Positions 45,155 to 57,015 of a DNA stretch of 57,551 nt are shown piece after piece. This DNA comes from a virus. A model generated the notes under the pieces. The model did not search any database. It saw only the letters and a program-made list of their open reading frames with translations, and was not told the origin of the DNA. Position 1 is the first letter of the stretch, and every line of letters starts with the position of its first letter. The DNA lies in IMG/VR virus record IMGVR_UViG_3300020198_000019, positions 1 through 57,551 of that record, one strand, 5' to 3'. Both the position numbers and the translations under genes were made by a program.

Positions 45155-46478
45155 GACCGCTTGTATGCTGCAGTGGATCAGTGACTGCGTGATGTTGGGC
45201 CGAGGCTCCCGCTTTCTGGTCGTAGCGCCGAAAGCGGTATGCCACATGGTCTGGCCGCAAGAGATCGCTAAGTGGGCGAACTTTCGGCACCTGACGTACG
45301 CCGTTTGTATGGGTCAGGACCAAAAGCGGCGGCAGCAGCTCAGCCTGCCCACAAACATCTCTATCATAAACCACGACGCGTTAGACTGGCTGGACCGCGT
45401 CACCAAAACCCACGCCCGGCTGCCATGGCACGCCATAATAATAGACGAAAGCACCAACTTTCGGAGCTGGGACAGCCGGCGCACTAAAGCCTTGGCAAAC
45501 CTAGTCAAGAAAATACCCCGGCGCGTGATCCTGACAGGCACACCGTCACCAAAAAACTTGGCTGACCTGTACCCGCAATTGTACATGCTCGACAACGGGG
45601 CGGCACTGGGCCAGACTATCGAGCAGTTCCGGTCGGCCTTTTGTTTCCAGGCGACTGGGCGGGGGTCCAGCTTCCACGTGAGAGACGACCGGAAGCGTCT
45701 GCTGTACTCTCGCATCCAGCCCTTGTGCCTGCGACTGGAGGCTAAGGACTACCTCAGCATGCCAGAGCTGATCACAAACGACGTGCCGGTACACCTCGAC
45801 GGCGGAGCCATGGACGTGTACGACCAGATGGAGCAGGAGATGTTCCTCGAACTAAACAGCGGGGACATTCGAGCAGCGGCCAACGCGAGCGCGCGATACA
45901 ATTTGTGTAAGCAGATTGCGACGGGGTTTGTGTACGACGAAAACAAGCAGGGCCATCCAGTACACGAGCAGGTAACAGACACCGTCGTCAGGATTGTGGC
46001 CGAGCTTGGCGGCAAGCCGGCATTGATTGCGTACCAGTTCACCTACGAACTGGAGATGTTGCGTAAGCGGATCCCGAAACTGCACGTGATACGTGGCGGG
46101 ATGAAGGCGGCAGACGTGCAACGCTTGGTGAAACTGTGGAACGAGGACAAACTGGACCCGCCGTATCTGGCGGTTCATCCGGCGGCACTATCGTTCGGTG
46201 TGAACATGCAGTTAGGATCCGGTCGGGATATCATTTGGAGTGCGCCGACGGATAACCTGATCGATTACCTGCAGTTAAACGCACGTATTCACCGGCAGGG
46301 CGTCGGCAGTTCGGTCAGGGTACACCGCCCCCGTGTAATGGGGACGGTGTGCGACCTGATTTGGGACAGGACCGACGCGAAGGAGGACGTGCAGGAAAGC
46401 CTGCTGAAGATCCTCAAAGAGTACGCAGCAGCCAAGATGCGTCTTTCTTCACTCCCCTCCGTGGTCCGGAAGACGTGA
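45018..46478 (+). CDS. SNF2-type DEAD/DEAH helicase
   Basis: 486 aa. Motif I DPGMGKT (41-47), motif II IIIDEST, motif III LTGTPSPKNL, and motif VI LNARIHRQG are all present; this is the short phage SNF2-like translocase. It probably remodels replication or recombination intermediates together with the VRR nuclease just upstream. The start codon begins a natural-looking N-terminus (MQFLPHPTWIPHEYQK). Last gene of the plus-strand replication block. Confidence 0.9.
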   Translation: MQFLPHPTWIPHEYQKTTINFVHSRTTFSEHSQDGAAVLLDPGMGKTACMLQWISDCVMLGRGSRFLVVAPKAVCHMVWPQEIAKWANFRHLTYAVCMGQDQKRRQQLSLPTNISIINHDALDWLDRVTKTHARLPWHAIIIDESTNFRSWDSRRTKALANLVKKIPRRVILTGTPSPKNLADLYPQLYMLDNGAALGQTIEQFRSAFCFQATGRGSSFHVRDDRKRLLYSRIQPLCLRLEAKDYLSMPELITNDVPVHLDGGAMDVYDQMEQEMFLELNSGDIRAAANASARYNLCKQIATGFVYDENKQGHPVHEQVTDTVVRIVAELGGKPALIAYQFTYELEMLRKRIPKLHVIRGGMKAADVQRLVKLWNEDKLDPPYLAVHPAALSFGVNMQLGSGRDIIWSAPTDNLIDYLQLNARIHRQGVGSSVRVHRPRVMGTVCDLIWDRTDAKEDVQESLLKILKEYAAAKMRLSSLPSVVRKT

Positions 46479-46481
46479 GTA

Positions 46482-46500
46482 CTACGGGCAGTGCTCGTAG
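46482..46500. terminator. Possible weak bidirectional terminator at convergent genes
   Basis: CTACG at 46482-46486 pairs with CGTAG at 46496-46500, with two more pairs inside after a mismatch. It lies in the 60-nt gap between the rightward helicase and the first leftward gene. No clear T-run on either side, so termination is uncertain. Confidence 0.25.
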
Positions 46501-46538
46501 GCCGCCCATAACCAGACCAAAACGTGAACTTGACACGG

Positions 46539-46823
46539 CTACTCCTCCCGCAAAAACTCGTGGATGTTTGGTATCACGCCTATCTCCGGAGTGATCTTGT
46601 GCCACTCCCAATTCTGCTCCTCTGTGTTACCGCCCGGGTTGAGCAGCAGGAAGTTTCCTTCAGGCAAGGGTTTCACGCCGTGTATCGTGTACGCGACACC
46701 GTCTAAGAATATCCCAACGTTTTTACTGCACTTGCGTAACTGACTGCAGATGCTCGCCAGCCGGGTTATTTGGCTCCGAGCTATTTGGCTATAATCTACA
46801 TCATCTTCGTTTGGATCCGACAC
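46539..46823 (-). CDS. Hypothetical protein, 94 aa
   Basis: Starts at GTG with AGGAG upstream that overlaps the end of the preceding gene. The sequence is mixed helix and strand, with Asn/Gly/Trp-rich GNFLLLNPGGNTEEQNWEW. No family recognised. It is last in the leftward array and converges with the helicase gene. Confidence 0.6.
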   Translation of the reverse strand: MSDPNEDDVDYSQIARSQITRLASICSQLRKCSKNVGIFLDGVAYTIHGVKPLPEGNFLLLNPGGNTEEQNWEWHKITPEIGVIPNIHEFLREE

Positions 46824-46824
46824 G

Positions 46825-47286
46825 TCAATCTCCTAAAGCCTGAAACAAAAACTCTTCCGAATCTCCGGCCATCCCACTGTCCGGGAATAACGCCCGCACT
46901 CTGTTCTTGCGGCAGTACGCCATCAGAGCCTGCCGCAGGCCGGGCTGTGCCGGCATCTGCCAGACACGCCCGTCAAGCCATTCCTGTCTCACTGTGATCG
47001 TGGGCTCCGGCTGCTTGTTAGGCGTAGGAGGTCCGCCGTTGAACAGCGTCGGGTATTGCCCCTCTCCGCTTTCCGGCGAGACTGTAGCCTCGTAACAGGC
47101 ACGCCCTAACGACGGATGGACCGGAACTTTCGCTCCTTTAAGTGGCCCCCAAGGCAGCGACTGCACCGACCGCACGTGCCAGACCCGGTTGCGGCGGTTG
47201 AGGATCACCTCCCACACAACGGGCTGCCCGTTAAAGACTCCGTAGGCAAACGGCTGCCAACTGCAGGGGTATGGTTTACGTCTCAC
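46825..47286 (-). CDS. Hypothetical protein, 153 aa
   Basis: The GTG at 47286 is chosen because AAAGGAGG lies six bases upstream; a longer frame would start in the preceding microgene. It is basic and Trp/Pro-rich (RRKPYPCSWQPFAYG, VQSLPWGPLKG). The start overlaps the previous stop (GTGA). Function unknown. Confidence 0.65.
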   Translation of the reverse strand: MRRKPYPCSWQPFAYGVFNGQPVVWEVILNRRNRVWHVRSVQSLPWGPLKGAKVPVHPSLGRACYEATVSPESGEGQYPTLFNGGPPTPNKQPEPTITVRQEWLDGRVWQMPAQPGLRQALMAYCRKNRVRALFPDSGMAGDSEEFLFQALGD

Positions 47287-47390
47287 GAGAAGCCTCCTTT
47301 CCGAGGTGGCGGCGTCGGTGTGACCCACCACAAAAACAAGATAATCACCAGCACTAGCGACATGTCAGCCAAACCTTTTGCGAGTATCAC
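47283..47390 (-). CDS. 35-aa membrane microprotein
   Basis: GTG start with an AAGGTG-type site; alternative ATG at 47363. One membrane helix (LVLVIILFLWWV) is followed by a Pro-rich, basic tail. It is joined by GTGA to the gene after it and lies 12 nt after the one before, so it is clearly within a translated chain. Function unknown. Confidence 0.5.
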   Translation of the reverse strand: MILAKGLADMSLVLVIILFLWWVTPTPPPRKGGFS

Positions 47391-47402
47391 GGCAACACCT
47401 TA

Positions 47403-47588
47403 TCAGCACAAAGTGTCAGAATCACCACCAGAAACAAAGTCAACACGCTCGCCACAATCGCTGTTGCGGCGTGGGTCCAGTCTAGGTTTTGGATAATCCC
47501 CATTTGTCTTTACCTCCCACCTTGTGTAAAAAACAAGAAACATCAACGCAGAAACGCCGGTAACCACCGGCCACACATACTGCCACAT
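47403..47588 (-). CDS. 61-aa membrane protein
   Basis: ATG with GAGG six bases upstream. An N-terminal membrane helix (VWPVVTGVSALMFLVFY, residues 5-21) then a polar, charged C-terminus. Topology resembles small phage membrane effectors. No homologue recognised. Confidence 0.55.
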   Translation of the reverse strand: MWQYVWPVVTGVSALMFLVFYTRWEVKTNGDYPKPRLDPRRNSDCGERVDFVSGGDSDTLC

Positions 47589-47617
47589 GACGCACCTCTG
47601 TGTTTGGTACCAAGCAA

Positions 47618-47752
47618 TCAGTACCCACGCTCAACAAAACCACCGATCTCCGTCGCAATCCGCCGAGCCGTTTCGTAATCACGATACCGATCGTGGAACA
47701 AACCGCCCCGCGAGTAGACCGCCCACGTGTGAAAACCATAAGTGCCGGTCAC
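47618..47752 (-). CDS. 44-aa soluble microprotein
   Basis: GTG start with GGGAGG eight bases upstream, overlapping the stop of the preceding 24-aa frame. The product is rich in Tyr, Arg and Gly (YSRGGLFHDRYRDYETARRI) and has a helix that looks stable. The good site and 4-nt overlap make it a credible gene. Confidence 0.5.
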   Translation of the reverse strand: MTGTYGFHTWAVYSRGGLFHDRYRDYETARRIATEIGGFVERGY

Positions 47753-47823
47753 TGTTCAGCCCTCCCGATGAACCAGCCAACAGTCCATACAAACGCCAAC
47801 AACCACGCACACAAAACTTCCAT
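47749..47823 (-). CDS. 24-aa membrane microprotein
   Basis: ATG follows GGGAG (the site of the repeated junction at 47836-47864). One helix (CAWLLAFVWTVGWFIG) and a short charged end. Its stop overlaps the next GTG. First of a run of five tightly joined frames, three with membrane helices. Confidence 0.45.
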   Translation of the reverse strand: MEVLCAWLLAFVWTVGWFIGRAEQ

Positions 47824-47834
47824 TTGAAACTCCC

Positions 47835-47864
47835 AAAAAAAAACGCCCCGGATTGCTCCGGGGC
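47835..47864 (-). terminator. Junction hairpin A1 (variant)
   Basis: Stem 47845-47851 / 47858-47864 (GCCCCGG with CCGGGGC), followed in the transcript by nine T and then GGGAG. A textbook intrinsic terminator, the most divergent member of family A. Confidence 0.8.
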
Positions 47865-47874
47865 TGCGTTGTTG

Positions 47875-48132
47875 TCACTTGTTGCGGCTGCGGTCGGCGA
47901 ACCACTCGCCACCACGGAGCACGAACCACCGGGGCATCATATCGCGACCGATCACCGCATAGGCGTTTGCCCCGTCGTAGTATCGTGTTTCACCGCCAAC
48001 CGTCCGGCATTCGTATTGACCGAGCAGCATTTGACCCGCTTGCTCACGATCCTTGCGGTCGCGTGCCGCATATTCGTTATCGGCTCGCAGGCTGTCAGCA
48101 TTCGGCAGAACTGTTCCAATCATTCGCGGCAT
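47875..48132 (-). CDS. Hypothetical protein, 85 aa
   Basis: ATG eight bases after GGGAG. Charged N-terminus, then a strand-rich centre (CRTVGGETRYYDGANAYAV) and RWFVLRGGEWFADR. No Cys pair or membrane segment. Unknown family. Confidence 0.65.
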   Translation of the reverse strand: MPRMIGTVLPNADSLRADNEYAARDRKDREQAGQMLLGQYECRTVGGETRYYDGANAYAVIGRDMMPRWFVLRGGEWFADRSRNK

Positions 48133-48139
48133 CGTCTCA

Positions 48140-48183
48140 ACTCCCAGCCTAAAGAAAAATCCCCGCCGCCCTATGCTGCGGGG
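48140..48183 (-). terminator. Junction module A2
   Basis: Hairpin 48161-48183 (CCCCGC / GCGGGG arms), A-rich strand 48151-48159 (T-run in RNA) and the site read as GGGAG at 48142-48146. The following gene's stop TGA sits inside the repeated CACAACACAACAG stretch. Confidence 0.8.
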
Positions 48184-48198
48184 CTGTTGTGTTGTGCC

Positions 48199-48411
48199 TC
48201 AGTCCCGATACACGGCACCGTATTGCTCGTCCTGCCAGATGGTGTACGCAACATTGTCAGCCTCCACGATTTCGCCAGTCAGCATTCCGTCGGCATCGAC
48301 TTCCAAATACCAGCCCGAGCAGCACCATTCCTGCGGGATGTCCTCGACGCTGTTGCCCTGATATTTGACCGCCACAAGTGCCAGTTCTCGCTGCGTAATT
48401 TCCCGTGCCAT
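48199..48411 (-). CDS. Hypothetical protein, 70 aa
   Basis: The ATG at 48411 follows GGGAG; a longer frame exists only by reading back through hairpin A3, so I reject it. Acidic, with EWCCSGWYLEVDADGML and AYTIWQDEQYGAVY suggesting a small beta fold. The Cys pair may matter. Unknown. Confidence 0.65.
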   Translation of the reverse strand: MAREITQRELALVAVKYQGNSVEDIPQEWCCSGWYLEVDADGMLTGEIVEADNVAYTIWQDEQYGAVYRD

Positions 48412-48419
48412 TGCCCTAA

Positions 48420-48462
48420 CTCCCAGCCTAAAGAAAAATCCCCGCCGCCCTATGCTGCGGGG
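48420..48462 (-). terminator. Junction module A3
   Basis: Hairpin 48440-48462, identical in sequence to A2, with the same T-run and GGGAG (48421-48425 on this strand). Flanked upstream by CACACACACACAACAG. Confidence 0.8.
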
Positions 48463-48478
48463 CTGTTGTGTGTGTGTG

Positions 48479-48730
48479 TCAGTCCAGTTTGTGCGTGAAT
48501 CCGTGAAAATGCCGCCTCGCACACGCACGGCCAACCGGGAAAAATCCCATATACCCGGGATCGCTTTCGTCGGTGTTCAGCCCTGGGGCAGCCACCTGTC
48601 TGCCGCCGTCAATCACCTCGACGAACAGCGGCTCGCTCGTCAGCTTGCGACCACAGCACGCACAGTGTTCCGTGCTGCCTTGCGTGCTGTGGTCTGCCCA
48701 CTTCATCGGAATCATCGCTGCTGTGCTCAT
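48479..48730 (-). CDS. Zinc-ribbon-like hypothetical protein, 83 aa
   Basis: HCACCGRKL near residues 22-30 and a later GRACARRH look like two halves of a zinc site. FVEVIDGGRQVAAPG lies between. Small zinc-ribbon proteins of this form are frequent in phage early regions; target unknown. The ATG follows GGGAG by eight bases. Confidence 0.65.
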   Translation of the reverse strand: MSTAAMIPMKWADHSTQGSTEHCACCGRKLTSEPLFVEVIDGGRQVAAPGLNTDESDPGYMGFFPVGRACARRHFHGFTHKLD

Positions 48731-48737
48731 CGTCGTA

Positions 48738-48782
48738 ACTCCCAGTCAGAAGTAAAATGCCCGCCAGCACTGTGCTGCGGGG
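48738..48782 (-). terminator. Junction module A4
   Basis: Hairpin 48760-48782 (GCCCGC..GCAC/GTGC..GCGGGG type), A-tract in 48751-48758 interrupted by T and G, GGGAG at 48739-48743. Confidence 0.75.
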
Positions 48783-48797
48783 CTGTTGTGTTGTGTC

Positions 48798-49040
48798 TCA
48801 GTCTACGATCCGCCGGATTGATCGTCCGTGGAATGTGCCCTTGCGGATACGGTCAGACCAGCCACGACCCTCGCCCCAGTAGTGTGCCCTGTCCAGCAGC
48901 ACTACTGCCTGCCCTCGGGCGTTGTCGCTGAATCCAATCACTCGACCAATCACCAGCATCTCAGTCGCACCGTGATTGTATCGCGCCAGAATGTCGCCGA
49001 CTCGCACGCCGTTCCACTGAATCCGATTTGATACCTGCAT
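48798..49040 (-). CDS. Hypothetical protein, 80 aa, SH3/Tudor-like
   Basis: A short beta-rich protein. WNGVRVGDILARYNHG, then VIGRVIGFSDNARGQAVVLL resembles five-strand barrels of the SH3/KOW kind. The rest is basic with aromatic residues (HYWGEGRGWSDRI). Possible nucleic-acid or protein binding. The ATG follows GGGAGTTGGGCAA. Confidence 0.6.
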   Translation of the reverse strand: MQVSNRIQWNGVRVGDILARYNHGATEMLVIGRVIGFSDNARGQAVVLLDRAHYWGEGRGWSDRIRKGTFHGRSIRRIVD

Positions 49041-49047
49041 TTGCCCA

Positions 49048-49093
49048 ACTCCCAGTCAGAAGAAAAATGCCCCGCCGCACTGTGCAGCGGGGC
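49048..49093 (-). terminator. Junction module A5
   Basis: Hairpin 49069-49093: GCCCCGC, an A/G mismatch flanking a GCAC/GTGC inner stem, and GCGGGGC, then AGAAGAAAAAT (T-run in RNA) and GGGAG. Confidence 0.8.
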
Positions 49094-49103
49094 GGTGTGT
49101 GTG

Positions 49104-49367
49104 TCAGCCGCCGTACTCGACAACACTCAGGCGGAATGACTCGCCGCTGTCAGTCTTGCCCCACACATCATAGGTGCATTCGCCGTCTGCGTCCTCGACA
49201 CTGGCGTTTGCGGCGTAGTCAATTTCATCGACGCCAGTCAGTGCGTCTTCCAGCCATTCCAGATTGTCTCTCACATCGACCCGAACGCGAACCGTTACAG
49301 TGCGGTCTTTGCTAATGCTAGTTGCAATTGCGGCTTCGATCTTCATCGCTCGGGTAACAGTCGTCAT
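49104..49367 (-). CDS. Hypothetical protein, 87 aa
   Basis: The ATG at 49367 follows GGGAG; a TTG 15 nt upstream lies in the junction itself. Alternating strands and acidic loops (TVTVRVRVDVRDN, ASVEDADGECTYDVWG). Probably a small beta domain. Unknown family. Confidence 0.6.
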   Translation of the reverse strand: MTTVTRAMKIEAAIATSISKDRTVTVRVRVDVRDNLEWLEDALTGVDEIDYAANASVEDADGECTYDVWGKTDSGESFRLSVVEYGG

Positions 49368-49374
49368 CGTCTGA

Positions 49375-49421
49375 ACTCCCAAAAACTAAATGGATACGCC
49401 CCGCCGCACTGTGCAGCGGGG
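49375..49421 (-). terminator. Junction module A6 (degraded T-run)
   Basis: Hairpin 49399-49421 is intact (CCCCGC..GCAC/GTGC..GCGGGG), but the stretch after it reads GTATCCATTTAG before TTTTT, so the T-run no longer follows the stem directly. GGGAG is retained. Useful evidence that the ribosome-binding site is under more constraint than termination. Confidence 0.7.
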
Positions 49422-49459
49422 TGGTGTGTTGTTGTTTTGCTTCATTCCGCTTCAGCGTC

Positions 49460-49678
49460 TTAGCTCTTCTTCAGCAGCACGTAATCGATGTACTTGAACT
49501 GACATTCCGCAAGCTGATCGGACAATTGCCACATGATTTCTGTCGCATCAAAATCCGCTTCTTTTTGTGCTGCGTGCCCTGCCTTGCGAAGCAGCTTCCA
49601 TGTGTCCAGCATATGCGCCATCGCCACTTGCTGCAGTGCAGCACTGTCCTGTTGTTTTTGTGATTTACGTTTTGCCAT
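49460..49678 (-). CDS. Hypothetical helical protein, 72 aa
   Basis: Lys/Gln/Ala-rich, predicted all-helix (QQDSAALQQVAMAHMLDTWK ... YIDYVLLKKS). No membrane span. Could be a small coiled-coil interaction partner. The ATG follows the GGGAGTTGGGCAA site. Confidence 0.65.
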   Translation of the reverse strand: MAKRKSQKQQDSAALQQVAMAHMLDTWKLLRKAGHAAQKEADFDATEIMWQLSDQLAECQFKYIDYVLLKKS

Positions 49679-49684
49679 TTGCCC

Positions 49685-49728
49685 AACTCCCAGTCAGAAG
49701 AAAGCCCCGCCGCACCATGCGACGGGGG
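49685..49728 (-). terminator. Junction module A7
   Basis: Hairpin 49705-49727 with a shortened T-run (AAAG on the plus strand before it) and GGGAG at 49687-49691. The inner stem is changed (CACCATG), the outer CCCCG/CGGGG kept. Confidence 0.7.
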
Positions 49729-49740
49729 AACACGTCCATC

Positions 49741-49983
49741 TCACCGTGACTGTCGGTCAATCGACTGCCAATGAGCCAGCGTGTCGGCGTCCAAATCAAA
49801 CGACTCACCGACCTCAGAGTGCCAGCCATTGGTGTTGACCCTGCGCCCACGCAATCCATCAGCCGTCTGGCGTGCCTGCAGGTGGCAAACGCCACCGTGC
49901 GCGGCTCTATTTTCGTCTCGGCTCACGGAGCCGGTATACCCCACAGTTGCCACTGTGGTCCATGTTCGAGTGATCCTACTCAT
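49741..49983 (-). CDS. Hypothetical protein, 80 aa
   Basis: The ATG at 49983 lies nine bases after GGGAG; the longer frame upstream crosses hairpin A8. TWTTVATVGYTGSVSRDENR, then GGVCHLQARQ suggests a strand-rich start and a basic middle. Unknown. Confidence 0.6.
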   Translation of the reverse strand: MSRITRTWTTVATVGYTGSVSRDENRAAHGGVCHLQARQTADGLRGRRVNTNGWHSEVGESFDLDADTLAHWQSIDRQSR

Positions 49984-49991
49984 CGTCTGCA

Positions 49992-50035
49992 ACTCCCAGT
50001 CAGAAGAAAAATCCCCGCCAGCACTGTGCAGCGGG
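49992..50035 (-). terminator. Junction module A8
   Basis: Hairpin 50013-50035, T-run from AGAAGAAAAAT, GGGAG at 49994-49998. Preceded in the RNA by TGACACACACAACAG. Confidence 0.8.
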
Positions 50036-50050
50036 CTGTTGTGTGTGTCA

Positions 50051-50227
50051 TCACCACGCCGCCTGAATGTCCGCGTGTGCCACGGTGATAATGCGGCCAC
50101 TCCCTGTCAGCAGCCGCACAGCCGTTCGTCCTACCGCCACGATCCGCAGTGTTTTGCCGTCCACAGTTGCCCAGCGGCTTGTGTTTTTGCAGTCGCCAGC
50201 GATGTTCTTGAGTTCGTTAGTGTTCAT
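50051..50227 (-). CDS. Hypothetical protein, 58 aa
   Basis: The ATG at 50227 is chosen (nine bases after GGGAG), though an ATG at 50233 is also possible. DGKTLRIVAVGRTAVRLLTG and RIITVAHADIQAAW form short strands and a helix, as in small barrel proteins. Unknown. Confidence 0.6.
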   Translation of the reverse strand: MNTNELKNIAGDCKNTSRWATVDGKTLRIVAVGRTAVRLLTGSGRIITVAHADIQAAW

Positions 50228-50234
50228 CTTCATC

Positions 50235-50277
50235 AACTCCCAGTCAGAAAAGAACCCCGCCGCACTGTGCTGCGGGG
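50235..50277 (-). terminator. Junction module A9
   Basis: Hairpin 50255-50277, an A-rich stretch AGAAAAGAA and GGGAG, nearly identical over 50 bases to A10. Confidence 0.8.
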
Positions 50278-50313
50278 CTGTTGTGTTTCACTCGTCCGCC
50301 TGCATGATCTTAA

Positions 50314-50625
50314 TTAACAGACCTCCGCTGCGAGGTCGTCGATGGCCGCGTCGACCCATTGCGGAAAATCAGTAACGACCATTTCCCGCATCTTCGACTC
50401 ACCAATCGCACACGCTGCCATCTTCAGGCTGTCTTCCTCGTCCTCGCCGTCATACCGGTGGCGGTGTGCGGCCAGTTCCGCTTCGGCCTCAGTCCGCGCC
50501 ACGCGCACCGTGTAACCACCGAAAAAACCGCGATCTTCTTTTGGCAGTTTACTGTCGCCACCGCTCATGTGCTCAAAACCAATCTGAAAGGTGTGTGCGT
50601 CTGCTTTGCGTGTTTCAAGTTTCAT
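50314..50625 (-). CDS. Hypothetical protein, 103 aa
   Basis: The ATG at 50625 lies nine bases after GGGAG. A strand, an acidic-helical centre (EAEAELAAHRHRYDGEDEED) and a helical end (FPQWVDAAIDDLAAEVC). GYTVRVARTEAEAE suggests an alpha-beta fold. No family recognised. Confidence 0.65.
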   Translation of the reverse strand: MKLETRKADAHTFQIGFEHMSGGDSKLPKEDRGFFGGYTVRVARTEAEAELAAHRHRYDGEDEEDSLKMAACAIGESKMREMVVTDFPQWVDAAIDDLAAEVC

Positions 50626-50632
50626 GTTCATC

Positions 50633-50675
50633 AACTCCCAGTCAGAAAAGAACCCCGCCGCACTGTGCTGCGGGG
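50633..50675 (-). terminator. Junction module A10
   Basis: Hairpin 50653-50675 with the same flanks as A9. Confidence 0.8.
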
Positions 50676-50690
50676 CTGTTGTGTGTGTCA

Positions 50691-50912
50691 TCACTCCGGC
50701 GGATGCTCGTAGCCGAGTGTTTCGACGTAGTATCGTTCGCCATCCTCAACATCAAACAATCCAACGCCAATTGTGATCTTGTCTTCCTTGGCGATTCGTT
50801 CCGCAGCACCCCAGGCGAGGGTTTCACTGCTGTATCCGCTGTCGTCGCCTACGCGACATTCTCCGCCGTCAGTGTCGAGTTCCCACAGGAAATAGCGCCG
50901 TGTCATCGTCAT
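50691..50912 (-). CDS. Hypothetical protein, 73 aa
   Basis: ATG after GGGGTTGAGCA, a diverged site. Acidic, with RRYFLWELDTDGGECRVG and VGLFDVEDGERYYVETLG. Looks like a compact beta protein. Unknown. Confidence 0.6.
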   Translation of the reverse strand: MTMTRRYFLWELDTDGGECRVGDDSGYSSETLAWGAAERIAKEDKITIGVGLFDVEDGERYYVETLGYEHPPE

Positions 50913-50919
50913 TGCTCAA

Positions 50920-50967
50920 CCCCAGTTGTGTTCCGCTAAAAAATCCCCGCCGCACTGTGCAGCGGGG
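50920..50967 (-). terminator. Junction module A11
   Basis: Hairpin 50945-50967 with TTTTTTAGC and then a changed spacer before the GGGG-type site (GGGAG lost). Shows decay of the 3' half of the module. Confidence 0.7.
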
Positions 50968-50975
50968 CTGTTGTT

Positions 50976-51203
50976 CTACCTGTCGTAATTGATACTGCTC
51001 CGGTCAACCTGCCAGATATCTGCTGTAATCAGCCGGACTGCAACAGGTTGAGTGGACATAGGCAGACGCACCGTACCTGTTGTCTCGCTCGTCATCGTCA
51101 CAGTGCGTCTATAGCTGGCTTGGTGCCATGGATCTCGACCACCACAGCCACATCCACACGGCACCAGTCTGTACCATACGATTTGATTCGCCAACTTTGC
51201 CAT
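50976..51203 (-). CDS. Hypothetical protein, 75 aa, Cys-rich loop
   Basis: The ATG at 51203 follows GGGGGTTGATGAAG. CGCGCGGRDPWH (Cys three times in five positions) could bind metal. Followed by a strand-rich end (VAVRLITADIWQVD). Unknown. Confidence 0.6.
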   Translation of the reverse strand: MAKLANQIVWYRLVPCGCGCGGRDPWHQASYRRTVTMTSETTGTVRLPMSTQPVAVRLITADIWQVDRSSINYDR

Positions 51204-51210
51204 CTTCATC

Positions 51211-51255
51211 AACCCCCGTCAAAAGAAAATAAAACCCGCTGCCCATTGCAGCGGG
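51211..51255 (-). terminator. Junction module A12
   Basis: Perfect 8-bp stem CCCGCTGC / GCAGCGGG (51235-51242, 51248-51255), then a T-rich stretch and GGGGG. The last copy of family A toward the right. Confidence 0.8.
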
Positions 51256-51269
51256 GTGTGGCGTCAGCC

Positions 51270-51458
51270 TCAGACTGCCTTACGAATGCGTCGCAGTGCT
51301 GACTGGCTCAGGCTGTGCATTGTGGTGTAGTGACCGGCTGCCGCATCGTACACCCGGACGGTGCCGTCTGCACTGATTGACACGCGATTCAGTCGGACGC
51401 CTTCGCCGCTGAAAGCCTTGCATCGGATAACGCGGATGGTTGTGTTTGCTGTGCTCAT
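51270..51458 (-). CDS. Hypothetical protein, 62 aa
   Basis: Starts at ATG overlapping the stop of the preceding gene (ATGA), with GGAG upstream, so it is coupled and lacks its own hairpin. Strand-rich and basic (VSISADGTVRVYDAAAGHYT). Unknown. Confidence 0.6.
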   Translation of the reverse strand: MSTANTTIRVIRCKAFSGEGVRLNRVSISADGTVRVYDAAAGHYTTMHSLSQSALRRIRKAV

Positions 51459-52057
51459 CGGGCCCAACTCCACAAAGTAGAATCCTGCGACACATTAACA
51501 GACATCGGTATAAAGCGTACCCCGCAGTACCGCACAAACTTGTGCATCAGAGCCCGGCAGACCGAGTACTCGAAAGTGTTCAGCTCAATAGGCGGGATGC
51601 TCTCAGCCAGCATCAAGTTGGAGAAGTTCATAGGGGGTATTGTCGCACCGCCAGAAGTTCTCAGGTACGTTGCGTACGCAATCAACCAATTCATGGCGGC
51701 GGAAGCGAGAAACATCATCGCCTCCCGCTCCCGTTCCATCTCCTTCTTCTCGTCCTCGCTCAGTTTATTACCGGCCTGGGGCAAAAACAGATCGGGTTTA
51801 CATGCGTCCGTTACCCACAGCTTTTCAGGACGCCCGTTCTTACGGGTAGACAGGACCTCAAACCAAACGTTAAACCACGTCTGATCTCCTATCAGTTCCC
51901 CGGTCGCGGCATCCTCGGAAGTGTCGTGGTCAGCAACCTGCTCGACGATCAGCGTCCGGATCATACGGGGCCGGAGGCCTTGTGTCCGGGTGTAAAGCAG
52001 ATTCAACTTGCCGGCAAGAGCGGCGTCTACGGGAACCTCAAGAGTAACACGAGCCAT
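51455..52057 (-). CDS. Hypothetical protein, 200 aa
   Basis: ATG at 52057, GGAAAATATC before it. N-terminus strand-like (RVTLEVPVDAALAGKLN), middle helical with an acidic/basic run (LSEDEKKEMEREREAMMFLA), C-terminus aromatic. One of the longer proteins of the array; no family recognised. Codes jointly with the 62-aa gene after it. Confidence 0.65.
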   Translation of the reverse strand: MARVTLEVPVDAALAGKLNLLYTRTQGLRPRMIRTLIVEQVADHDTSEDAATGELIGDQTWFNVWFEVLSTRKNGRPEKLWVTDACKPDLFLPQAGNKLSEDEKKEMEREREAMMFLASAAMNWLIAYATYLRTSGGATIPPMNFSNLMLAESIPPIELNTFEYSVCRALMHKFVRYCGVRFIPMSVNVSQDSTLWSWAR

Positions 52058-52069
52058 GATATTTTCCAA

Positions 52070-52105
52070 AGGAAAAACCTCAAAGAGGCGGGGGCTTTCG
52101 CCCCC
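52070..52105 (-). terminator. Double hairpin terminator
   Basis: In the leftward transcript: GGGGGC-GAAA-GCCCCC (52090-52105, a GNRA-type loop) then CCTC-TTT-GAGG followed by five T. It differs from families A and B, and separates the 259-aa gene from the 200-aa gene. Confidence 0.7.
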
Positions 52106-52141
52106 GGCCATACAAACCAGCAGCCACGATAGCCGCCGGCA

Positions 52142-52921
52142 TCACAGAATACGCAACAAACTGGGCAGGACAGCATTGCGGCTGCCGTGCCCTACAATCG
52201 CCACGTGCTTACGCTGGTCAGCCATGTCCCGGCGACCGTCGCAGGCTCCGCAAGTAGCACAGGTGCGGGTATTGCCCGCTTCGGGTGACGCCGGACACAG
52301 GATCTCGTTAGACGCAAGATCGTCGACGGTCCGCATGACACGGAACGTACGCCAGCCAGCATCCTGAGCGATCACCGCCTCAGCTTGTGACTGCACGCTC
52401 GCCATAACCAGCGGCTGCCACCCCGCCGCAGCAGACTCACGCCACTGATGCGTGTATCCGGGGTACTTGCCGGGTTTAAGCAACGCTTCAAGAGCAGCCC
52501 ACGCCTCACGCGGCACGGCGACCGGGTCCCCGTAAGACCCGCGACGCAATGCGTACTTGCCGAGCTTACGCAGCATTGACTTGCCGAGCTTTGTCACGTG
52601 CTGATAAGACCCTCGACGAAAGGCTTTCCACACTTGCTCTGGGGCGTTTCGTATCGTCACATAACACGCACGGTAACGGTTCCTCGTGCGGTGCTTACTG
52701 CCCTTCGGCATGCGCTCCACAACGCCACGCAACGGGCAGGAACCGCAGATACTCGAGTCCTTGCCGCTATTGATCGCGGCGAGGGGGCTAACATCCCGTC
52801 GCAAGATCCATGTCTGGATCAGCGGGCCTGTTTTTTCGTTGCGTGTGCCTATTGTGGCGATAGCAACAATCGGCTTGCCGTCCAGCATGGACGGACCGGA
52901 GTAAAAGATAACGCCAGCCAT
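52142..52921 (-). CDS. Cysteine-cluster phage protein, 259 aa
   Basis: The ATG at 52921 lies six bases after GGGAG (CCCACTATGGGAG). Near the start GPSMLDGKPIVAIATIG, TGPLIQTWILRRDVSP, then CGSCPLRG and RACYV; near the end LCPASPE and CATCGACDG. The four- and three-Cys groups suggest a metal or Fe-S site. I recall this pattern from conserved hypothetical phage proteins but cannot name the family. KLGKSMLRKLGKYALRRGSYG is a basic, possibly nucleic-acid-facing stretch. Confidence 0.65.
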   Translation of the reverse strand: MAGVIFYSGPSMLDGKPIVAIATIGTRNEKTGPLIQTWILRRDVSPLAAINSGKDSSICGSCPLRGVVERMPKGSKHRTRNRYRACYVTIRNAPEQVWKAFRRGSYQHVTKLGKSMLRKLGKYALRRGSYGDPVAVPREAWAALEALLKPGKYPGYTHQWRESAAAGWQPLVMASVQSQAEAVIAQDAGWRTFRVMRTVDDLASNEILCPASPEAGNTRTCATCGACDGRRDMADQRKHVAIVGHGSRNAVLPSLLRIL

Positions 52922-52926
52922 GATCA

Positions 52927-52979
52927 ACTCCCATAGTGGGCCAGAAAAAGAAAACCCCGACGACACGGTGTCGCCGGGG
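52927..52979 (-). terminator. Junction module B1
   Basis: Hairpin 52955-52979 (CCCCG, CGACAC, GTGTCG, CGGGG arms), T-rich stretch, and CCCACTATGGGAG before the ATG. Begins in the RNA with TAACGCAGAAAGCAGGTC, whose TAA is the CsrA stop. Confidence 0.8.
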
Positions 52980-53006
52980 AGTACTGCAATCGACCTGCTT
53001 TCTGCG

Positions 53007-53183
53007 TTATGGGGCGATCTCTTCTCGCACCACGGAAACCGTATCACGCGGGCTGTCAAACGCCAGACTGCATGACCCTGTCGCAGTGCTGTTGATTTTT
53101 ATGGTGATCACAACCGGGTCGGACCCGGGAGGCGTCACCGTAATGACAACACGCTGGCCTCTTCGACGTTTCAATACCAACAT
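53007..53183 (-). CDS. csrA: CsrA-family translational regulator
   Basis: 58 aa: MLVLKRRRGQRVVI, strands VVITIKIN, then SLAFDSPRDTVSVVREEI. This is the CsrA core: basic strand 1 with the L-x-R start and the late V-x-R-E-E with the RNA-binding Arg. Known CsrA dimers bind GGA motifs near ribosome-binding sites. The ATG at 53183 has GGAG six bases upstream. It sits in the array whose genes share GGGAG leaders, so phage self-regulation or hijack of host translation is likely. The family call is firm, the target is inference. Confidence 0.85.
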   Translation of the reverse strand: MLVLKRRRGQRVVITVTPPGSDPVVITIKINSTATGSCSLAFDSPRDTVSVVREEIAP

Positions 53184-53190
53184 TCGAAAC

Positions 53191-53228
53191 TCCTTAATGG
53201 AAAAGCGTGCCGGCAAACACGCCGGCAC
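53191..53228 (-). terminator. Junction hairpin B2 (variant)
   Basis: Perfect 8-bp stem GTGCCGGC / GCCGGCAC (53207-53214, 53221-53228) with four T and GGAG ahead of csrA. Sequence unlike the other B hairpins, same layout. Confidence 0.75.
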
Positions 53229-53262
53229 ATCTGGAAAACTCTACAACATCTGTGGAATCGTG

Positions 53263-53610
53263 TCAACGGGAAAACCGGATCAGCCGGCAATGCCGCAGTT
53301 TGATCACGCCCGCTTCATCGACCCGGGCGTGAGCGGTATTCGTGTCATCGAGGGACACCCAGTTACCGGGCGTCGGATCTCCGGGCTGCGGTGATGCGAA
53401 CCACCGCACATCGATCGCAAGGTACACGGTAGTCTTACGTGCTCGGGCATTATACGGGGCCTGACTACGCCACAATTTCGTGGCTTCCACGATATTGGGG
53501 CCACTGCCCCAACTACAATCCCCGACCACCAGAAACCACACCCATCCTGACGGGGCGTCCGTCACGTCCAACAACACGCTGTGATTACGAAACAGAACTT
53601 CACTCGCCAT
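53263..53610 (-). CDS. Hypothetical protein, 115 aa
   Basis: ATG at 53610 after CCCATTATGGGAGAGAGTG. Strand-rich with a Trp/Val core (SGWVWFLVVGDCSWG) and TTVYLAIDVRWFASP. The C-terminus is basic (LRHCRLIRFSR). Unknown. Confidence 0.65.
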   Translation of the reverse strand: MASEVLFRNHSVLLDVTDAPSGWVWFLVVGDCSWGSGPNIVEATKLWRSQAPYNARARKTTVYLAIDVRWFASPQPGDPTPGNWVSLDDTNTAHARVDEAGVIKLRHCRLIRFSR

Positions 53611-53616
53611 CACTCT

Positions 53617-53665
53617 CTCCCATAATGGGACCAAAGAAAAGCCCGGCGACACGGTGCCGCCGGGC
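53617..53665 (-). terminator. Junction module B3
   Basis: Hairpin 53641-53665, GCCCGGCG / CGCCGGGC arms around CACGGTG, then T-rich and CCCATTATGGGAG. The TCCCAT-T-ATGGGA portion is itself a perfect palindrome that includes the ribosome-binding site. Confidence 0.8.
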
Positions 53666-53674
53666 ATGTAACAC

Positions 53675-54259
53675 TCAGCGGGTTTCGACAAAGGCCCTGA
53701 TATTATCCCACTTTTCTTCCGCAACACGATGAGCTGCATCCCTTGCAGCAAGCGCGTCGTTGAACTCAACTACTAAGCGGTTCACTGCGCTCGTCAGTAA
53801 CGTAGTATCCGCATCGCCAGCGACTTCGGTGAGCGGGTAGGGTGGCCTCACTGGGCCGTCAACGACAGTGATCTTGCCGTCCGTGTCAAACGAACACAGG
53901 CGTACAACGATCTCGTTGTACTCACACATGTGCGTTTCCTTGCCGTTGGTGACGAAGGCGCACCCCTTAACCAGCAGGTAGATGCTGTGCTTGCTTTGCT
54001 GCGTCGTCAAGTACCCCAAGGCCAGGTACCGCTCGGGGTACGCACGTCGGTGTGTTTCTGCCTCCCACACAGCCGGGGCTACAGCGTTACGAAACGCTGT
54101 GGTCAACGTAAGGTCAGTCTTCACAGCTTTCTTGCCAACGTACGCTGTAATGGCGGACCGCAGTAACGGCAGCAACAACAAGGCAAACCGCAGCGCCCTG
54201 CAGTGAGCCTCGAGGCGGGCCTGATACTGCGGCGTCATAGTGACTGGGTACTCTCGCAT
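53675..54259 (-). CDS. Hypothetical protein, 194 aa
   Basis: ATG at 54259 with GGAG six bases upstream. Helical N-terminus with a hydrophobic stretch (LRFALLLLPLLRSAITAYVG), then strands with IYLLVKGCAFVTNGKE. Might associate with membrane or form a helical core. No family recognised. Confidence 0.65.
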   Translation of the reverse strand: MREYPVTMTPQYQARLEAHCRALRFALLLLPLLRSAITAYVGKKAVKTDLTLTTAFRNAVAPAVWEAETHRRAYPERYLALGYLTTQQSKHSIYLLVKGCAFVTNGKETHMCEYNEIVVRLCSFDTDGKITVVDGPVRPPYPLTEVAGDADTTLLTSAVNRLVVEFNDALAARDAAHRVAEEKWDNIRAFVETR

Positions 54260-54262
54260 AAC

Positions 54263-54316
54263 ACACTCCAAACAAAAACCAACAGGAAAAACCCCGACGA
54301 CACGGTGTCGCCGGGA
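54263..54316 (-). terminator. Junction module B4
   Basis: Hairpin 54292-54316 close to B1, T5, and a diverged site TTTGGAG with no palindrome. Confidence 0.7.
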
Positions 54317-54344
54317 AGGTACTGCTCAGGACCTGCTTTCTGCG

Positions 54345-54572
54345 TTAAGACCCCCGCTTGCAGTAGTTACACGCAGCGTTCAAGGCCTTTAGAAAAGCAC
54401 TATTCGACTCGATGACGTTTCGAACTTGAGATTGCCGGCTGTTCGTATCCGAGTAACACTCGGGCTCGGCAAGCGTTTCGAGTTCCTCCACCAACAACCG
54501 GGCTACGGCGAGCGCGTCCTCAATCAGGGGCTCGGCGTCGCTTTCATCAAACTTTCTCATCTTATGCGTCAT
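54345..54572 (-). CDS. Hypothetical helical protein, 75 aa
   Basis: ATG after CCCATTACGGGAG. Acidic helix-rich (DESDAEPLIEDALAVARLL, VEELETLAEPE) with two Cys near each other at the end (CNYCKRGS). Its TAA is the first base triplet of the B-type repeat TAACGCAGAAAGCAGG. Confidence 0.65.
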   Translation of the reverse strand: MTHKMRKFDESDAEPLIEDALAVARLLVEELETLAEPECYSDTNSRQSQVRNVIESNSAFLKALNAACNYCKRGS

Positions 54573-54578
54573 GGTAAC

Positions 54579-54626
54579 ACTCCCGTAATGGGCCGCAAAA
54601 GGCCCGGCGACACGGTGCCGCCGGGC
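54579..54626 (-). terminator. Junction module B5
   Basis: Hairpin 54602-54626 (same arms as B3), TTTTGCGGCCCATTACGGGAG. Confidence 0.8.
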
Positions 54627-54644
54627 ATAGAAAACACTAAAGCC

Positions 54645-55283
54645 TCACGGCTTGTGCTCAAGCTCAGACATTGCATCCCGAAAAGCCTTGATAACTTGGT
54701 ACTCGTAAGCAGACTCGGGATCAATCGCCCACGTATCGTCCTGATCCAACTGTTCCCGGGCAGAGGTCACCATGTCTTGAATCAAATACTCCACGTCGGA
54801 ATCGTAATAGCCGCCGCAACTGTCAAGTTGGGTTTCGTCGTCGTCGTCGCCAACCCCGGACCACGAAAGCCCGTGGCCGTTACACCAGTCCGTGTAGCAC
54901 TGGAGGAACCGATCAGCGTCCTTTGCCCGATCCTCGTACGTCTTAGCCCCGATGGCGGAAGGCCCATGTTCCCAGAGCAATACGCCTGCGTGTCCGACGC
55001 CGTCGAAACGGCAGTCAGTACCTGGGCCACCGTGCCCCTTACGAAACCACACACACTCCCCGTGCTCGTAATAGCTGAGCATGAACGCCAGCCCGACATC
55101 GAGTCGGCGGCGAAGGCTGATGTCCCGAGCGGTGAACACGAGCGATCCGTGTTTACGGGTGACACGAAACAACTTGTCGGGGTGCTGAAACCCGACGTGT
55201 TTGCGGCTAAACGACACGAGTTTCCAGTTCATGTCGTTTTCGGCTGGATCTGGACAGCAATCAGGCTCGATCTTAAACGTCAT
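54645..55283 (-). CDS. Hypothetical protein, 212 aa
   Basis: ATG after CCCATTACGGGAGTGTT. N-terminus with CCPDPAEND, middle beta-rich (SLVFTARDISLRRR, AGVLLWEHGP), C-terminus acidic (GVGDDDDETQLD). The largest unknown of family B. No motif decides its role. Confidence 0.65.
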   Translation of the reverse strand: MTFKIEPDCCPDPAENDMNWKLVSFSRKHVGFQHPDKLFRVTRKHGSLVFTARDISLRRRLDVGLAFMLSYYEHGECVWFRKGHGGPGTDCRFDGVGHAGVLLWEHGPSAIGAKTYEDRAKDADRFLQCYTDWCNGHGLSWSGVGDDDDETQLDSCGGYYDSDVEYLIQDMVTSAREQLDQDDTWAIDPESAYEYQVIKAFRDAMSELEHKP

Positions 55284-55289
55284 AACACT

Positions 55290-55373
55290 CCCGTAATGGG
55301 AACAACAAAGAAAAACCCGGCGACACCACGTCGCCGGGAACCTACTGCTCTGGACCTGCTTTCTGCGTTAGCC
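55290..55373 (-). repeat. Junction module B6, left copy of a 62-nt exact direct repeat
   Basis: Hairpin 55316-55338: perfect 9-bp stem CCCGGCGAC / GTCGCCGGG. From about 55311 to 55372 it is identical to 56298-56359. The TAA in its distal end follows a short open stretch without a start (55374-55394), apparently the leftover 3' end of a gene. Confidence 0.85.
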
Positions 55374-55415
55374 GATAAAACGTTTCGCTGCTCACAAAAA
55401 CGGTGTTGGCATCAG

Positions 55416-55760
55416 CTATCCTACAACCTTGGATAATTTCATTGGCTTGTTCATCCAAGGTTGTGGCTGGATATGAATGAACCAATCTTGAATTGAAGGA
55501 ATAAAGCCCATGTCTTCGGTAACGTGTTGTTCACCTATCCATCGAGTAGGAATAACCCTGCCCGTTGATAGCGTGATTGTATTGCCGAACACGCGTTCAC
55601 ACTCAAAGATACCTTGAGCATGATGTCGTAAAGCACGATGCCGAAAATCAGCAAACATTTCCTTGCTGGCATCAAACCATTCGTGAATTTTTTGATAATC
55701 CTCTGGGTTTCCGCCCCATTTTTGGGTTGAGGAAAGGGAATGATGATATGGATTAGCCAT
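55416..55760 (-). CDS. DUF6915-like protein, 114 aa
   Basis: ATG with GGAGG five bases upstream. NPYHHSLSSTQKWGGNPEDY, IHEWFDASKEMFADFRHRAL and RWIGEQHVTEDMGFIPS agree with DUF6915 as I remember it (HHA/S..S...GG..EDY, IHDWFD, FRHRALRHH). Function of the family unknown. Codons and intergenic DNA here are clearly AT-richer than in the neighbours and no junction hairpin follows it directly, supporting recent acquisition with the gene beside it. Confidence 0.75.
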   Translation of the reverse strand: MANPYHHSLSSTQKWGGNPEDYQKIHEWFDASKEMFADFRHRALRHHAQGIFECERVFGNTITLSTGRVIPTRWIGEQHVTEDMGFIPSIQDWFIHIQPQPWMNKPMKLSKVVG

Positions 55761-55910
55761 TGTGTCCTCCATAAAAAAAGGTAGGTGTGAGGCCAATCCT
55801 CACACCTAACTCCAAAGAATGCGAACAAAGCGGTCAACCGGAGCCGCCGTTCGCGCGGGTTTTGAAATCAAAGTCTTTCGGCGGCGGCCCGGTTACCGCC
55901 GTCGTTAGTA
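55761..55910. other. 150-nt gap inside the inserted segment
   Basis: Contains CCGGTTGACCG and GCCGGCGG-type stretches (CGGAGCCGCC, GGCGGCGGCCCGGTTACCGCC) but no frame with a credible start and no junction-family hairpin. In the leftward direction a short inverted repeat AGGTGTGAGG / CCTCACACCT (55781-55806) precedes the DUF6915 gene and may act as its terminator. Confidence 0.35.
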
Positions 55911-56264
55911 TTAACAATTTTCCTCAAAATCTTCGTAATTTAAAACTTCCTCGCACCCTTTCATCGTGACAGTTTTCGTCGTGGTATCCCAAATAACCTC
56001 ACCCGTTACGCTGTATTCACCAGCGAACGTATAGTATTTGTCATAAACTGGTCGGCACAGCCCGCGAACAAGCGCGTTTTCGGGCGTTTGCTCTCTGCCC
56101 GAATCCTCTGGCCAATAATCTTCATGTAATTGGCAGATGACTGTGTCATCTTTCTGGATGACAATGTCATGGCATCCGCCTTCATCATTGCCACCACTGA
56201 AACGGATAACGCATTTGTTTCCGCCTTTGCTTTTGATGAAAGCAAACAGTTTTTCACGTGTCAT
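55911..56264 (-). CDS. DUF6878-like protein, 117 aa
   Basis: ATG after ATGGAGAAAAGCT. CVIRFSGGNDEGGCHDIVIQ, then YYTFAGEYSVTGEVIWD and TVTMKGCEEV match DUF6878-type plasmid/phage proteins from memory (F-x-G-x-x-D-x-G, then AGEYSVxGEV). Function unknown. Shares the low GC of the gene after it. Confidence 0.65.
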   Translation of the reverse strand: MTREKLFAFIKSKGGNKCVIRFSGGNDEGGCHDIVIQKDDTVICQLHEDYWPEDSGREQTPENALVRGLCRPVYDKYYTFAGEYSVTGEVIWDTTTKTVTMKGCEEVLNYEDFEENC

Positions 56265-56270
56265 AGCTTT

Positions 56271-56359
56271 TCTCCATTTCGTCCTTAACGTAAAAACAAA
56301 AACCCGGCGACACCACGTCGCCGGGAACCTACTGCTCTGGACCTGCTTTCTGCGTTAGC
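56271..56359 (-). repeat. Junction module B7, right copy of the 62-nt direct repeat
   Basis: Hairpin 56303-56325 and distal part identical to B6. The TAA of the 198-aa gene lies in it. The low-GC segment lies exactly between the two copies. Confidence 0.85.
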
Positions 56360-56951
56360 GTACCTCGGAACGCACGTTGATGAGACCCTCCCGCATTTCC
56401 TCGCTGGTGATCTCGAACTGTTTATCTGTAGACCGCACGTACCACGTCCACGTAATATCCTCGCGGTCACCCTCGCACTCCTCGATCCAGAAATGCATCC
56501 GCTTGATTATCGCTCGCGTTACCCGCCACGATTCGATTGACGGGTAGCTCCCCTTAACCACGACTCGGTGCCAGCCCCAGTGCTGCATCGCATACAGCCT
56601 AACGTCCTCCGTGTTAGGCTCAGACTGCAGGGCGAACTGGGCCACCAGTTCCGGTAGCCCCGTCCAAAGCGCGAGTAGATCATCGCATGATAGATCTTGA
56701 CTTGGGTTTACGTCGGCCAGCCTGCACCGTAATTCGATGCAGTCTAAGCCGTACTCGTTAGACGCGATCAAGTCGAACACCGATAAAAATTCATCGTAAA
56801 CGGGGTCGTCGGGGTTTGCGGCACTAAGCGCTGCGTAAACAAGCCCGAAAGCGTGTTGGCGAGCCACCATCTCGTGGTTCGCCACGTCAACCCCTGCGTC
56901 ACCGTCACAGTACGTAACGTGACCGTGATTATCGATCCAGTACTCAGACAT
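56355..56951 (-). CDS. Hypothetical protein, 198 aa
   Basis: ATG with GGAGG, preceded by TCCATTACGGAGG, a B-type site. Mostly helical, acidic (VDVANHEMVARQHAFGLVYA, CDDLLALWTGLPELVAQFAL). Trp-rich near the end (WTWYVRS). No family recognised. Confidence 0.65.
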   Translation of the reverse strand: MSEYWIDNHGHVTYCDGDAGVDVANHEMVARQHAFGLVYAALSAANPDDPVYDEFLSVFDLIASNEYGLDCIELRCRLADVNPSQDLSCDDLLALWTGLPELVAQFALQSEPNTEDVRLYAMQHWGWHRVVVKGSYPSIESWRVTRAIIKRMHFWIEECEGDREDITWTWYVRSTDKQFEITSEEMREGLINVRSEVR

Positions 56952-56990
56952 GACTTACCTCCGTAATGGAAACAAGAAAGGAACACGAAC

Positions 56991-57012
56991 GATGGCCGCC
57001 GCAGCGGCCATC
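56991..57012 (-). other. Strong hairpin without T-run
   Basis: Nine-bp perfect stem GATGGCCGC / GCGGCCATC with a four-base loop, between the 198-aa gene and the 74-aa gene. The transcript after it reads GTTCGTGTTCC, so it is not a standard terminator; it may be a processing or stability element. Confidence 0.5.
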
Positions 57013-57015
57013 TAT

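Follow-up and report, generated by a model that had tools for sequence, protein, structure and literature searches.

How do a dozen short genes without visible kinship come to be separated by nearly the same intergenic sequence? The question is raised by the left-pointing arm of an uncultured phage genome, IMG/VR virus record IMGVR_UViG_3300020198_000019, analysed here over 57,551 bases (the window). Twelve orphan open reading frames (ORFs) of 60–105 aa lie there on the minus strand from position 51458 to 47875, and the gaps between them, 60–90 nt long, each hold a GC-rich hairpin of 21–25 nt and a leader with a ribosome site. With a probability of roughly 0.68, we read these junctions as the boundary units of an exchangeable gene array, in which each would combine a leaky terminator or 3′-end hairpin with a translation leader, lie within one operon and serve as a site of recombination.

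Anatomy and structure of the junctions

The junctions follow one order from 5′ to 3′, namely the stop codon of the preceding gene, a CA-rich spacer, the hairpin, a T-rich stretch, the leader and the ATG of the next gene. In this family (family A) the typical hairpin is CCCCGCTGCA CAG TGCGGCGGGG; a hairpin is present in 12 of 12 junctions, T-rich tails follow it in most, and about 20–30 nt separate it from the ATG. The original prediction held that eleven related junctions and one variant link unrelated genes, and we could place all of them on the minus strand between 51269 and 47823. It had also assigned a TGA stop to each junction, which is correct for nine, the others using TAA (two) or TAG (one). 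Conservation of the whole gap was claimed too broadly, as the full leader TTCTGACTGGGAGTT is found in half of the gaps (6/12), with GGGAGTT in 10 of 12. The hairpin varies as well, with an A·G mismatch in some copies, bulges in junctions A5/A6 and A9/A10, and distinct stems in A1/A2, A6/A7 and the array end (coordinates in Table 1).

The genes between the junctions are mutually dissimilar. All-against-all BLASTP gave no convincing similarity among the array ORFs (best E about 0.04), and tandem duplication of one ORF was thereby ruled out. No Pfam, PHROG or PADLOC family was found above cut-off, A11 and A12 having been covered by the Pfam scan only. The fold of A6 was predicted fairly well (pLDDT 84), and no solved structure matched it at E≤0.001.

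Terminator-like sites number 32 between 46.5 and 57.5 kb, against 10.5 ± 3.3 in shuffled sequence, more than chance would give. Single junctions folded with z values from +0.33 to −2.97 against dinucleotide shuffles, so that the evidence lies in repetition and covariation and not in any one fold. Among 16 distinct A-type hairpins, 95% of the pair cells hold standard pairs and four of the ten pairs have changed on both sides. Cells with a double change number 15, compared with 4.1 after shuffling, a signal that is lost when the partners are slid; the stems thus covary, and hairpins lacking compensatory changes, which the original prediction had named as evidence against itself, are not what was found. 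Differing stems, CCCCGCTGC.., CCCCGTCAG.. or CCCCGCCGG.., occur in the same leader context. Across 70 junctions the hairpin begins a median of 15 nt after the stop codon, most often 11–19 nt, and at about 15 nt past the stop a hairpin can form at the edge of the terminating ribosome. A known RNA family was ruled out, as an Rfam scan of 46400–57551 matched none at E up to 1.

A sister family, B, separates the genes upstream of the array in the same layout, with the hairpin CCCGGCGAC..GTCGCCGGG often preceded by AACGCAGAAAGCAGGTC. Its ribosome sites are enclosed in a very small stem, CCC-ATTAC-GGG or TCC-ATTAT-GGA (window 52922–57012, minus strand, and the leaders of contigs L021 and L022), whose outer pair has changed on both sides between copies, from C-G to T-A. 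Some family-A leaders could hide the ribosome site by folding (CUUCU-GACU-GGGAG). Near the right end of the window, the repeat CCTGCACCCGTCTAAGGCCT at 57016–57048 and 57331–57363 is a possible third junction family.

Junctions and gene exchange in related phages

Among the baits used on IMG/VR, the terminase worked, while the DNA polymerase and array gene A3 brought no relatives. The terminase retrieved seven contigs, one of them identical to the window across that gene, and two (G003 and G004) carry a homologous arm with both junction families. A search by hairpin pattern matched 61 viral stretches against a rough expectation of about ten, and in some 30 of these the hairpin follows a stop codon and precedes a ribosome site. 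We then scanned a covariance model, built from the 16 distinct A-type hairpins, on 24 array loci and 16 control phage loci. Copies were present in 24 of 24 array loci and in none of the controls at E<0.05, and the sense strand outscored the antisense strand wherever both matched; the one further match was weak (E 0.045) and fell on a fragment with structural genes that belongs to the lineage of the window. The controls (L028–L043) are marine phages with a homolog of gene B9, a neighbor of the array; the seven inspected had no comparable array, and none of the 16 had a csrA gene (see below) or a model match. The junctions are thus widespread and join unrelated ORFs, and are not a local tandem series of one ORF, the finding that the original prediction had said would count against it.

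Many array contigs form one group with the leader GAGTGAGGGAACGA-NN-ATG, which we label marine for convenience only, and leaders of the form TTGAGGGATCAG or GCGGGAGG occur in others. In several of the array contigs, structural genes are 50–72% identical to those of the window. Contig G008 has no detectable protein similarity to the window, yet it carries a window-like leader, CTTCTGACTGAAAGTTGGGGCAAATGGCA. Its locus, L118, belongs to an otherwise unrelated 48-kb phage with repeated leaders of its own (CTGGAGAAGA..ATG and GTGGGATTTTTTGGAA; 420–560 and 1683) beside one window-type junction. The hairpin is essentially absent from reference bacterial genomes (GTDB), where three isolated matches in Streptomyces and Paenibacillus were judged coincidental terminators or chance; two peptide patterns likewise found no terminase relative there. 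The exact leader pattern gave three IMG/VR matches, all within coding sequence of unrelated contigs and attributed to chance, and the family-B string AACGCAGAAAGCAGGTCC gave none because its last base differs in the relatives.

Gene content changes between these junctions. Only A6 and A10 of the 12 window genes have homologs in G003 and G004, where the two are adjacent, and the nearby B9 and helicase share 65% and 76% identity with their window counterparts. The array precedes two conserved genes in the window and follows them in L021. A8 is hairpin-led in the window, and its L119 homolog stands first and is promoter-led. In the slot table, genes of families S2 and S3 are promoter-led in some phages and hairpin-led in others; one S3 gene is promoter-led in slot 1 of L095 and hairpin-led in slot 2 of L107 at 100% identity. 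The order of S1 and S2 is reversed between L066 and L063 (77–79% identity), a statement that uses only the 78-aa members of an S1 family mixing proteins of 78–154 aa. Single linkage also merged A9 with A11, which stricter clustering parts, and no claim depends on that family. Hairpin type is not tied to the gene, as families F2, F3 and F8 each stand behind two types. Leaders track the phage rather than the gene: for window genes with homologs elsewhere, leader similarity to the homolog is 0.41–0.53 (background 0.43), compared with 0.63–0.66 to other window leaders.

Two pairs of closely related contigs locate breakpoints. G003 has one 150-codon ORF more than G004, and the left edge of the difference lies within the hairpin; past this edge about 200 bp match at about 76%, with essentially no differences in the remainder of the compared stretch. 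Between L107 and L095, a stretch of 6,236 bp that starts in a leader is 100% identical; upstream of it the two contigs differ, except for a 124-bp match and a promoter stretch with partial similarity. One crossover thus falls in a leader, and one right edge falls inside an ORF. As far as the compared sequences can tell, the layout, conservation and covariation of the units, the swapping of genes and the breakpoints within units are real. The idea of a plug-in locus is upheld, in that ORFs turn over and reassort and the hairpin and leader stay.

Units of an ORF and an inverted repeat in one shared orientation would also be expected of integron-like or other site-specific cassettes, with the hairpin as a DNA recombination site. 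We consider this very improbable, as the hairpin changes in sequence while its pairing persists, the crossover and the right edge just described fall in a leader and an ORF, and the core motifs RYYYAAC and GTTRRRY occur in 0 and 3 of 12 junctions. No tyrosine recombinase exceeded the PF00589 cut-off in 10 array-phage records, several of them fragments. On these grounds the arrays were not classed as integrons.

Transcription of the array and its CsrA companion

In the reading of the junctions as boundary units, each holds a short spacer without structure behind the stop, a GC-rich hairpin of about 10 bp some 15 nt past it, a short T-rich stretch and a lineage-specific leader that ends at the ATG. 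An upstream promoter would read the whole array as a single operon. The hairpin would form once the ribosome has terminated and would act as a leaky intrinsic terminator and 3′-end element of the preceding gene, and the leader would initiate translation of the following one. Homologous recombination at the junctions, suggested because the same stretch of 40–60 nt recurs at each boundary, would insert, delete and swap ORFs between related phages and leave the expression signals undisturbed. The enzymes would plausibly be the phage's own exonuclease and annealing protein, whose genes favor this reading as candidates for the exchange machinery.

Promoter placement fits such an operon. In 16 marine-type loci a sigma-70-like promoter, TTGACR-17-TA(C/A)TAT, precedes the first gene, which has the same leader as later slots without the hairpin. 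The window and its near relatives L021 and L022 have a related site ahead of csrA, and no sigma-70-like match was found in the family-A junctions, although the consensus may not be that of the host. The array is probably one operon with internal hairpins. A GC-rich hairpin with a U-tract is seen in several A copies and most B copies and is weak in the other A copies. Most family-B hairpins score +30 to +43 by the d'Aubenton-Carafa formula, which suggests that family B supplies strong and family A leaky terminator elements. That each gene has its own partial terminator and a common translation start, as first proposed, appears correct on sequence grounds alone. The proposed uniform expression and early timing did not gain such support, and one upstream promoter with leaky hairpins would rather predict a gradient of expression.

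Several points weigh against an operon of leaky boundary units. By the same formula, family-A scores are mostly near or below zero, and at such low scores family A may hardly terminate. The labels early and operon depend on gene position and on missing promoter matches, and we infer termination efficiency, operon transcription, the recombination enzymes and early timing. Moreover, the relatives all come from metagenome assemblies, in which repeats are prone to chimeric joining, so single breakpoints could be assembly artefacts; the permutations of A8, S1, S2 and S3 are independent of any single breakpoint.

The closest described system is the PeSL (promoter early stem-loop) cassettes of T4-type phages (Arbiol 2010; Comeau 2014), which, as presented in a citing article (PMC4503421), recur between genes as units with a stem-loop resembling a terminator, flanked by fast-exchanged ORFs, and are proposed sites of modular shuffling. 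The parallel with that account is a stem-loop in 12 of 12 window junctions between exchanged ORFs, and shuffling with breakpoints at the junction unit in metagenome contigs. The original prediction had seen the nearest parallel in cluster K mycobacteriophages; on the same account, PeSL is closer. The arrays might even be true PeSL-type cassettes, with a promoter (read by an unusual host polymerase or one modified by the phage) and terminator in each junction and each gene its own transcription unit, since layout and gene-shuffling role match those of the T4-type phages, as so described, and of halovirus HGTV-1 (PMC3950731). We regard this as distinctly unlikely. The family-A junctions have no promoter-like hexamers (the host consensus may differ), the distance from hairpin to ATG leaves little room for a promoter, and relatives have a good promoter before slot 1 only, with a hairpin in later slots. 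Compared with PeSL as the citing article portrays it, the phage type appears to be different, no promoter was found in the family-A unit, one promoter precedes the first slot instead, and a conserved translation leader lies inside the unit. A search for the promoter that defines PeSL found none, and the arrays were therefore not filed as PeSL.

In HGTV-1, a conserved inverted-repeat motif precedes most ORFs of one genome arm and was proposed as a shuffling aid; unlike the junctions here, the motifs of this archaeal virus include a TATA-box-like promoter (PMC3950731). The start-associated sequences of cluster K (SAS and ESAS) are repeats at the start codons of non-structural genes, in some cases preceded by an inverted repeat, for which mRNA hairpins found little support (PMC3203893), whereas the hairpins here covary and adjoin the preceding stop codon. 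The 13-bp cluster K consensus GGGATAGGAGCCC had no match at start codons with up to two mismatches allowed, and filing under SAS was ruled out. The arrays are a real, widespread, promoter-less relative of the shuffling boundaries of the PeSL and HGTV-1 type, with an unexpected CsrA companion.

This companion is a csrA-like gene upstream of the array (Table 1), whose homolog in L021 (8490–8672) scores 42.7 bits for PF02599. The window CsrA has residues that we take, by eye, to match E. coli L4, R6, R7, V42 and R44, and a PDB sequence search with it gave no match. Besides the window, 26 of 32 array records have csrA above cut-off (22/24 in the first search and 4/8 in the second), including fragments of 6–13 kb, and three of the six misses are fragments of about 5 kb. 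None of 44 other viral records has it (Fisher p 6e-15, ignoring relatedness). The promoter-like site ahead of csrA runs directly into a hairpin with a short T-run, TGTGCCGGCGTGTTTGCCGGCACG (window 53206–53266, minus strand; L021 8409–8489), looking like an attenuator or autoregulatory leader. Phage-encoded CsrA, a small CsrA-family protein, is elsewhere rare, at 1.2% of phages in a published survey, and without an established phage target (PMC7366521; phage JC1, PMC9144972); its near-constant presence beside the arrays sets these phages apart.

The csrA counts against that base rate raise another explanation, a translational regulon in which a phage regulator, with the nearby CsrA-like protein as the first candidate, would use the leader, and perhaps also the hairpin, as its RNA operator and so control translation of all array genes at once. 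The leaders are conserved past the ribosome site and common to promoter-led and hairpin-led genes, many contain A-N-GGA, and some in the window can enclose the ribosome site in a small hairpin. However, the array phages are related and csrA may be lineage-fixed, the window family-A leaders (CTGGGAG) have no A-N-GGA core, and GGA is part of most ribosome sites. We hold such a regulon to be unlikely, and control of the array by CsrA is put forward as a proposal only. An equally doubtful extension is a lineage-wide regulon, in which accessory genes would gain common RNA control by landing between junctions, the hairpin setting slot-dependent dosage and the leader serving as CsrA operator; if true, the array would serve evolution as a plug-in board and at the same time work as an operon under post-transcriptional switching.

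Genome context and biological meaning

Table 1. Features of the window discussed in the text, in order of position.
Feature	Position	Strand	Remarks
Phage exonuclease	40188–41618	+	possible recombination machinery
Single-stranded DNA (ssDNA)-binding/annealing protein	41599–42381	+	possible recombination machinery
Array end	47823–47874	−	strong intrinsic terminator GCCCCGGA GCAA TCCGGGGC + T9, then GGGAGTTTCAA-ATG
A12	47875–48132	−	85 aa
Junction A11/A12	48133–48198	−	
A11	48199–48411	−	70 aa; partial homologs in many array phages
Junction A10/A11	48412–48478	−	leader TTTAGGCTGGGAGTT
A10	48479–48730	−	83 aa; L021/L022 homolog (71%) adjoins A6 homolog there
Junction A9/A10	48731–48797	−	hairpin bulged
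A9	48798–49040	−	80 aa
Junction A8/A9	49041–49103	−	
A8	49104–49367	−	87 aa; homolog in L119 (80% identical)
Junction A7/A8	49368–49459	−	leader shortened
A7	49460–49678	−	72 aa
Junction A6/A7	49679–49740	−	variant stem CCCCGTCGCA/TGCGGCGGGG; leader near-match to unrelated phage G008
A6	49741–49983	−	80 aa; 57–68% homologs in L021, L067, L070, L072, L083, L086
Junction A5/A6	49984–50050	−	hairpin bulged
A5	50051–50233	−	60 aa
Junction A4/A5	50234–50313	−	3′ part identical to junction A3/A4
A4	50314–50631	−	105 aa
Junction A3/A4	50632–50690	−	typical: CA-rich spacer, hairpin, then TTCTTTTCTGACTGGGAGTTG
A3	50691–50912	−	73 aa
Junction A2/A3	50913–50975	−	hairpin CCCCGCTGCACAGTGCGGCGGGG; leader differs
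A2	50976–51209	−	77 aa
Junction A1/A2	51210–51269	−	divergent copy; hairpin CCCGCTGC AATGG GCAGCGGG + TTTTATTTT
A1	51270–51458	−	62 aa, orphan; distant homologs in L091/L096/L110
Family-B junctions	52922–56354	−	between upstream genes; long T-run, CCATTA-type leader
csrA-like gene	53007–53183	−	PF02599, 33.5 bits (cut-off 27); upstream of array
Candidate promoter	53238–53266	−	TTGACA-17-TAGAGT ahead of csrA; L021/L022 form TTGACC-17-TAGAAT

The phage encodes a serine recombinase, terminase, PolA-type DNA polymerase, helicase, exonuclease and ssDNA-binding/annealing protein, and its structural proteins mostly remained without assignment in our scans. INPHARED holds no close relative: 20–44.9 kb gave no nucleotide match, the terminase had no match, and the DNA polymerase reached a best identity of about 33%, its matches (about 31–33%) being mainly to genomes of about 39–60 kb. 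Most rightward genes overlap or lie directly next to each other (28 of 36 gaps at most 30 nt), and in the leftward arm (57–47 kb) most gaps contain a hairpin and leader. Three perfect, GC-rich 27-bp direct repeats lie at 42226–42314 (plus strand), close to where the gene for the ssDNA-binding protein ends. A conserved 259-aa protein (52142–52921, minus strand) has homologs in 148 phage records, among them Mycobacterium, Klebsiella, Gordonia and Roseobacter phages. The gene for a DUF6915 protein (163.5 bits; 55416–55760, minus strand) is low in GC (43%) unlike most neighbors and is possibly a recent acquisition.

The arrays offer an unusually clear natural case of small accessory genes entering and leaving phage genomes with expression intact. 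The idea that terminator motifs between genes promote modular shuffling, put forward for T4-type phages and for one halovirus, can be extended in promoter-less form to a widespread lineage of aquatic phages, and a terminator and leader alone may suffice. The near-constant csrA offers a testable role for phage-encoded CsrA, and the arrays are places in which host-takeover or counter-defence genes of these uncultured aquatic phages might be sought.

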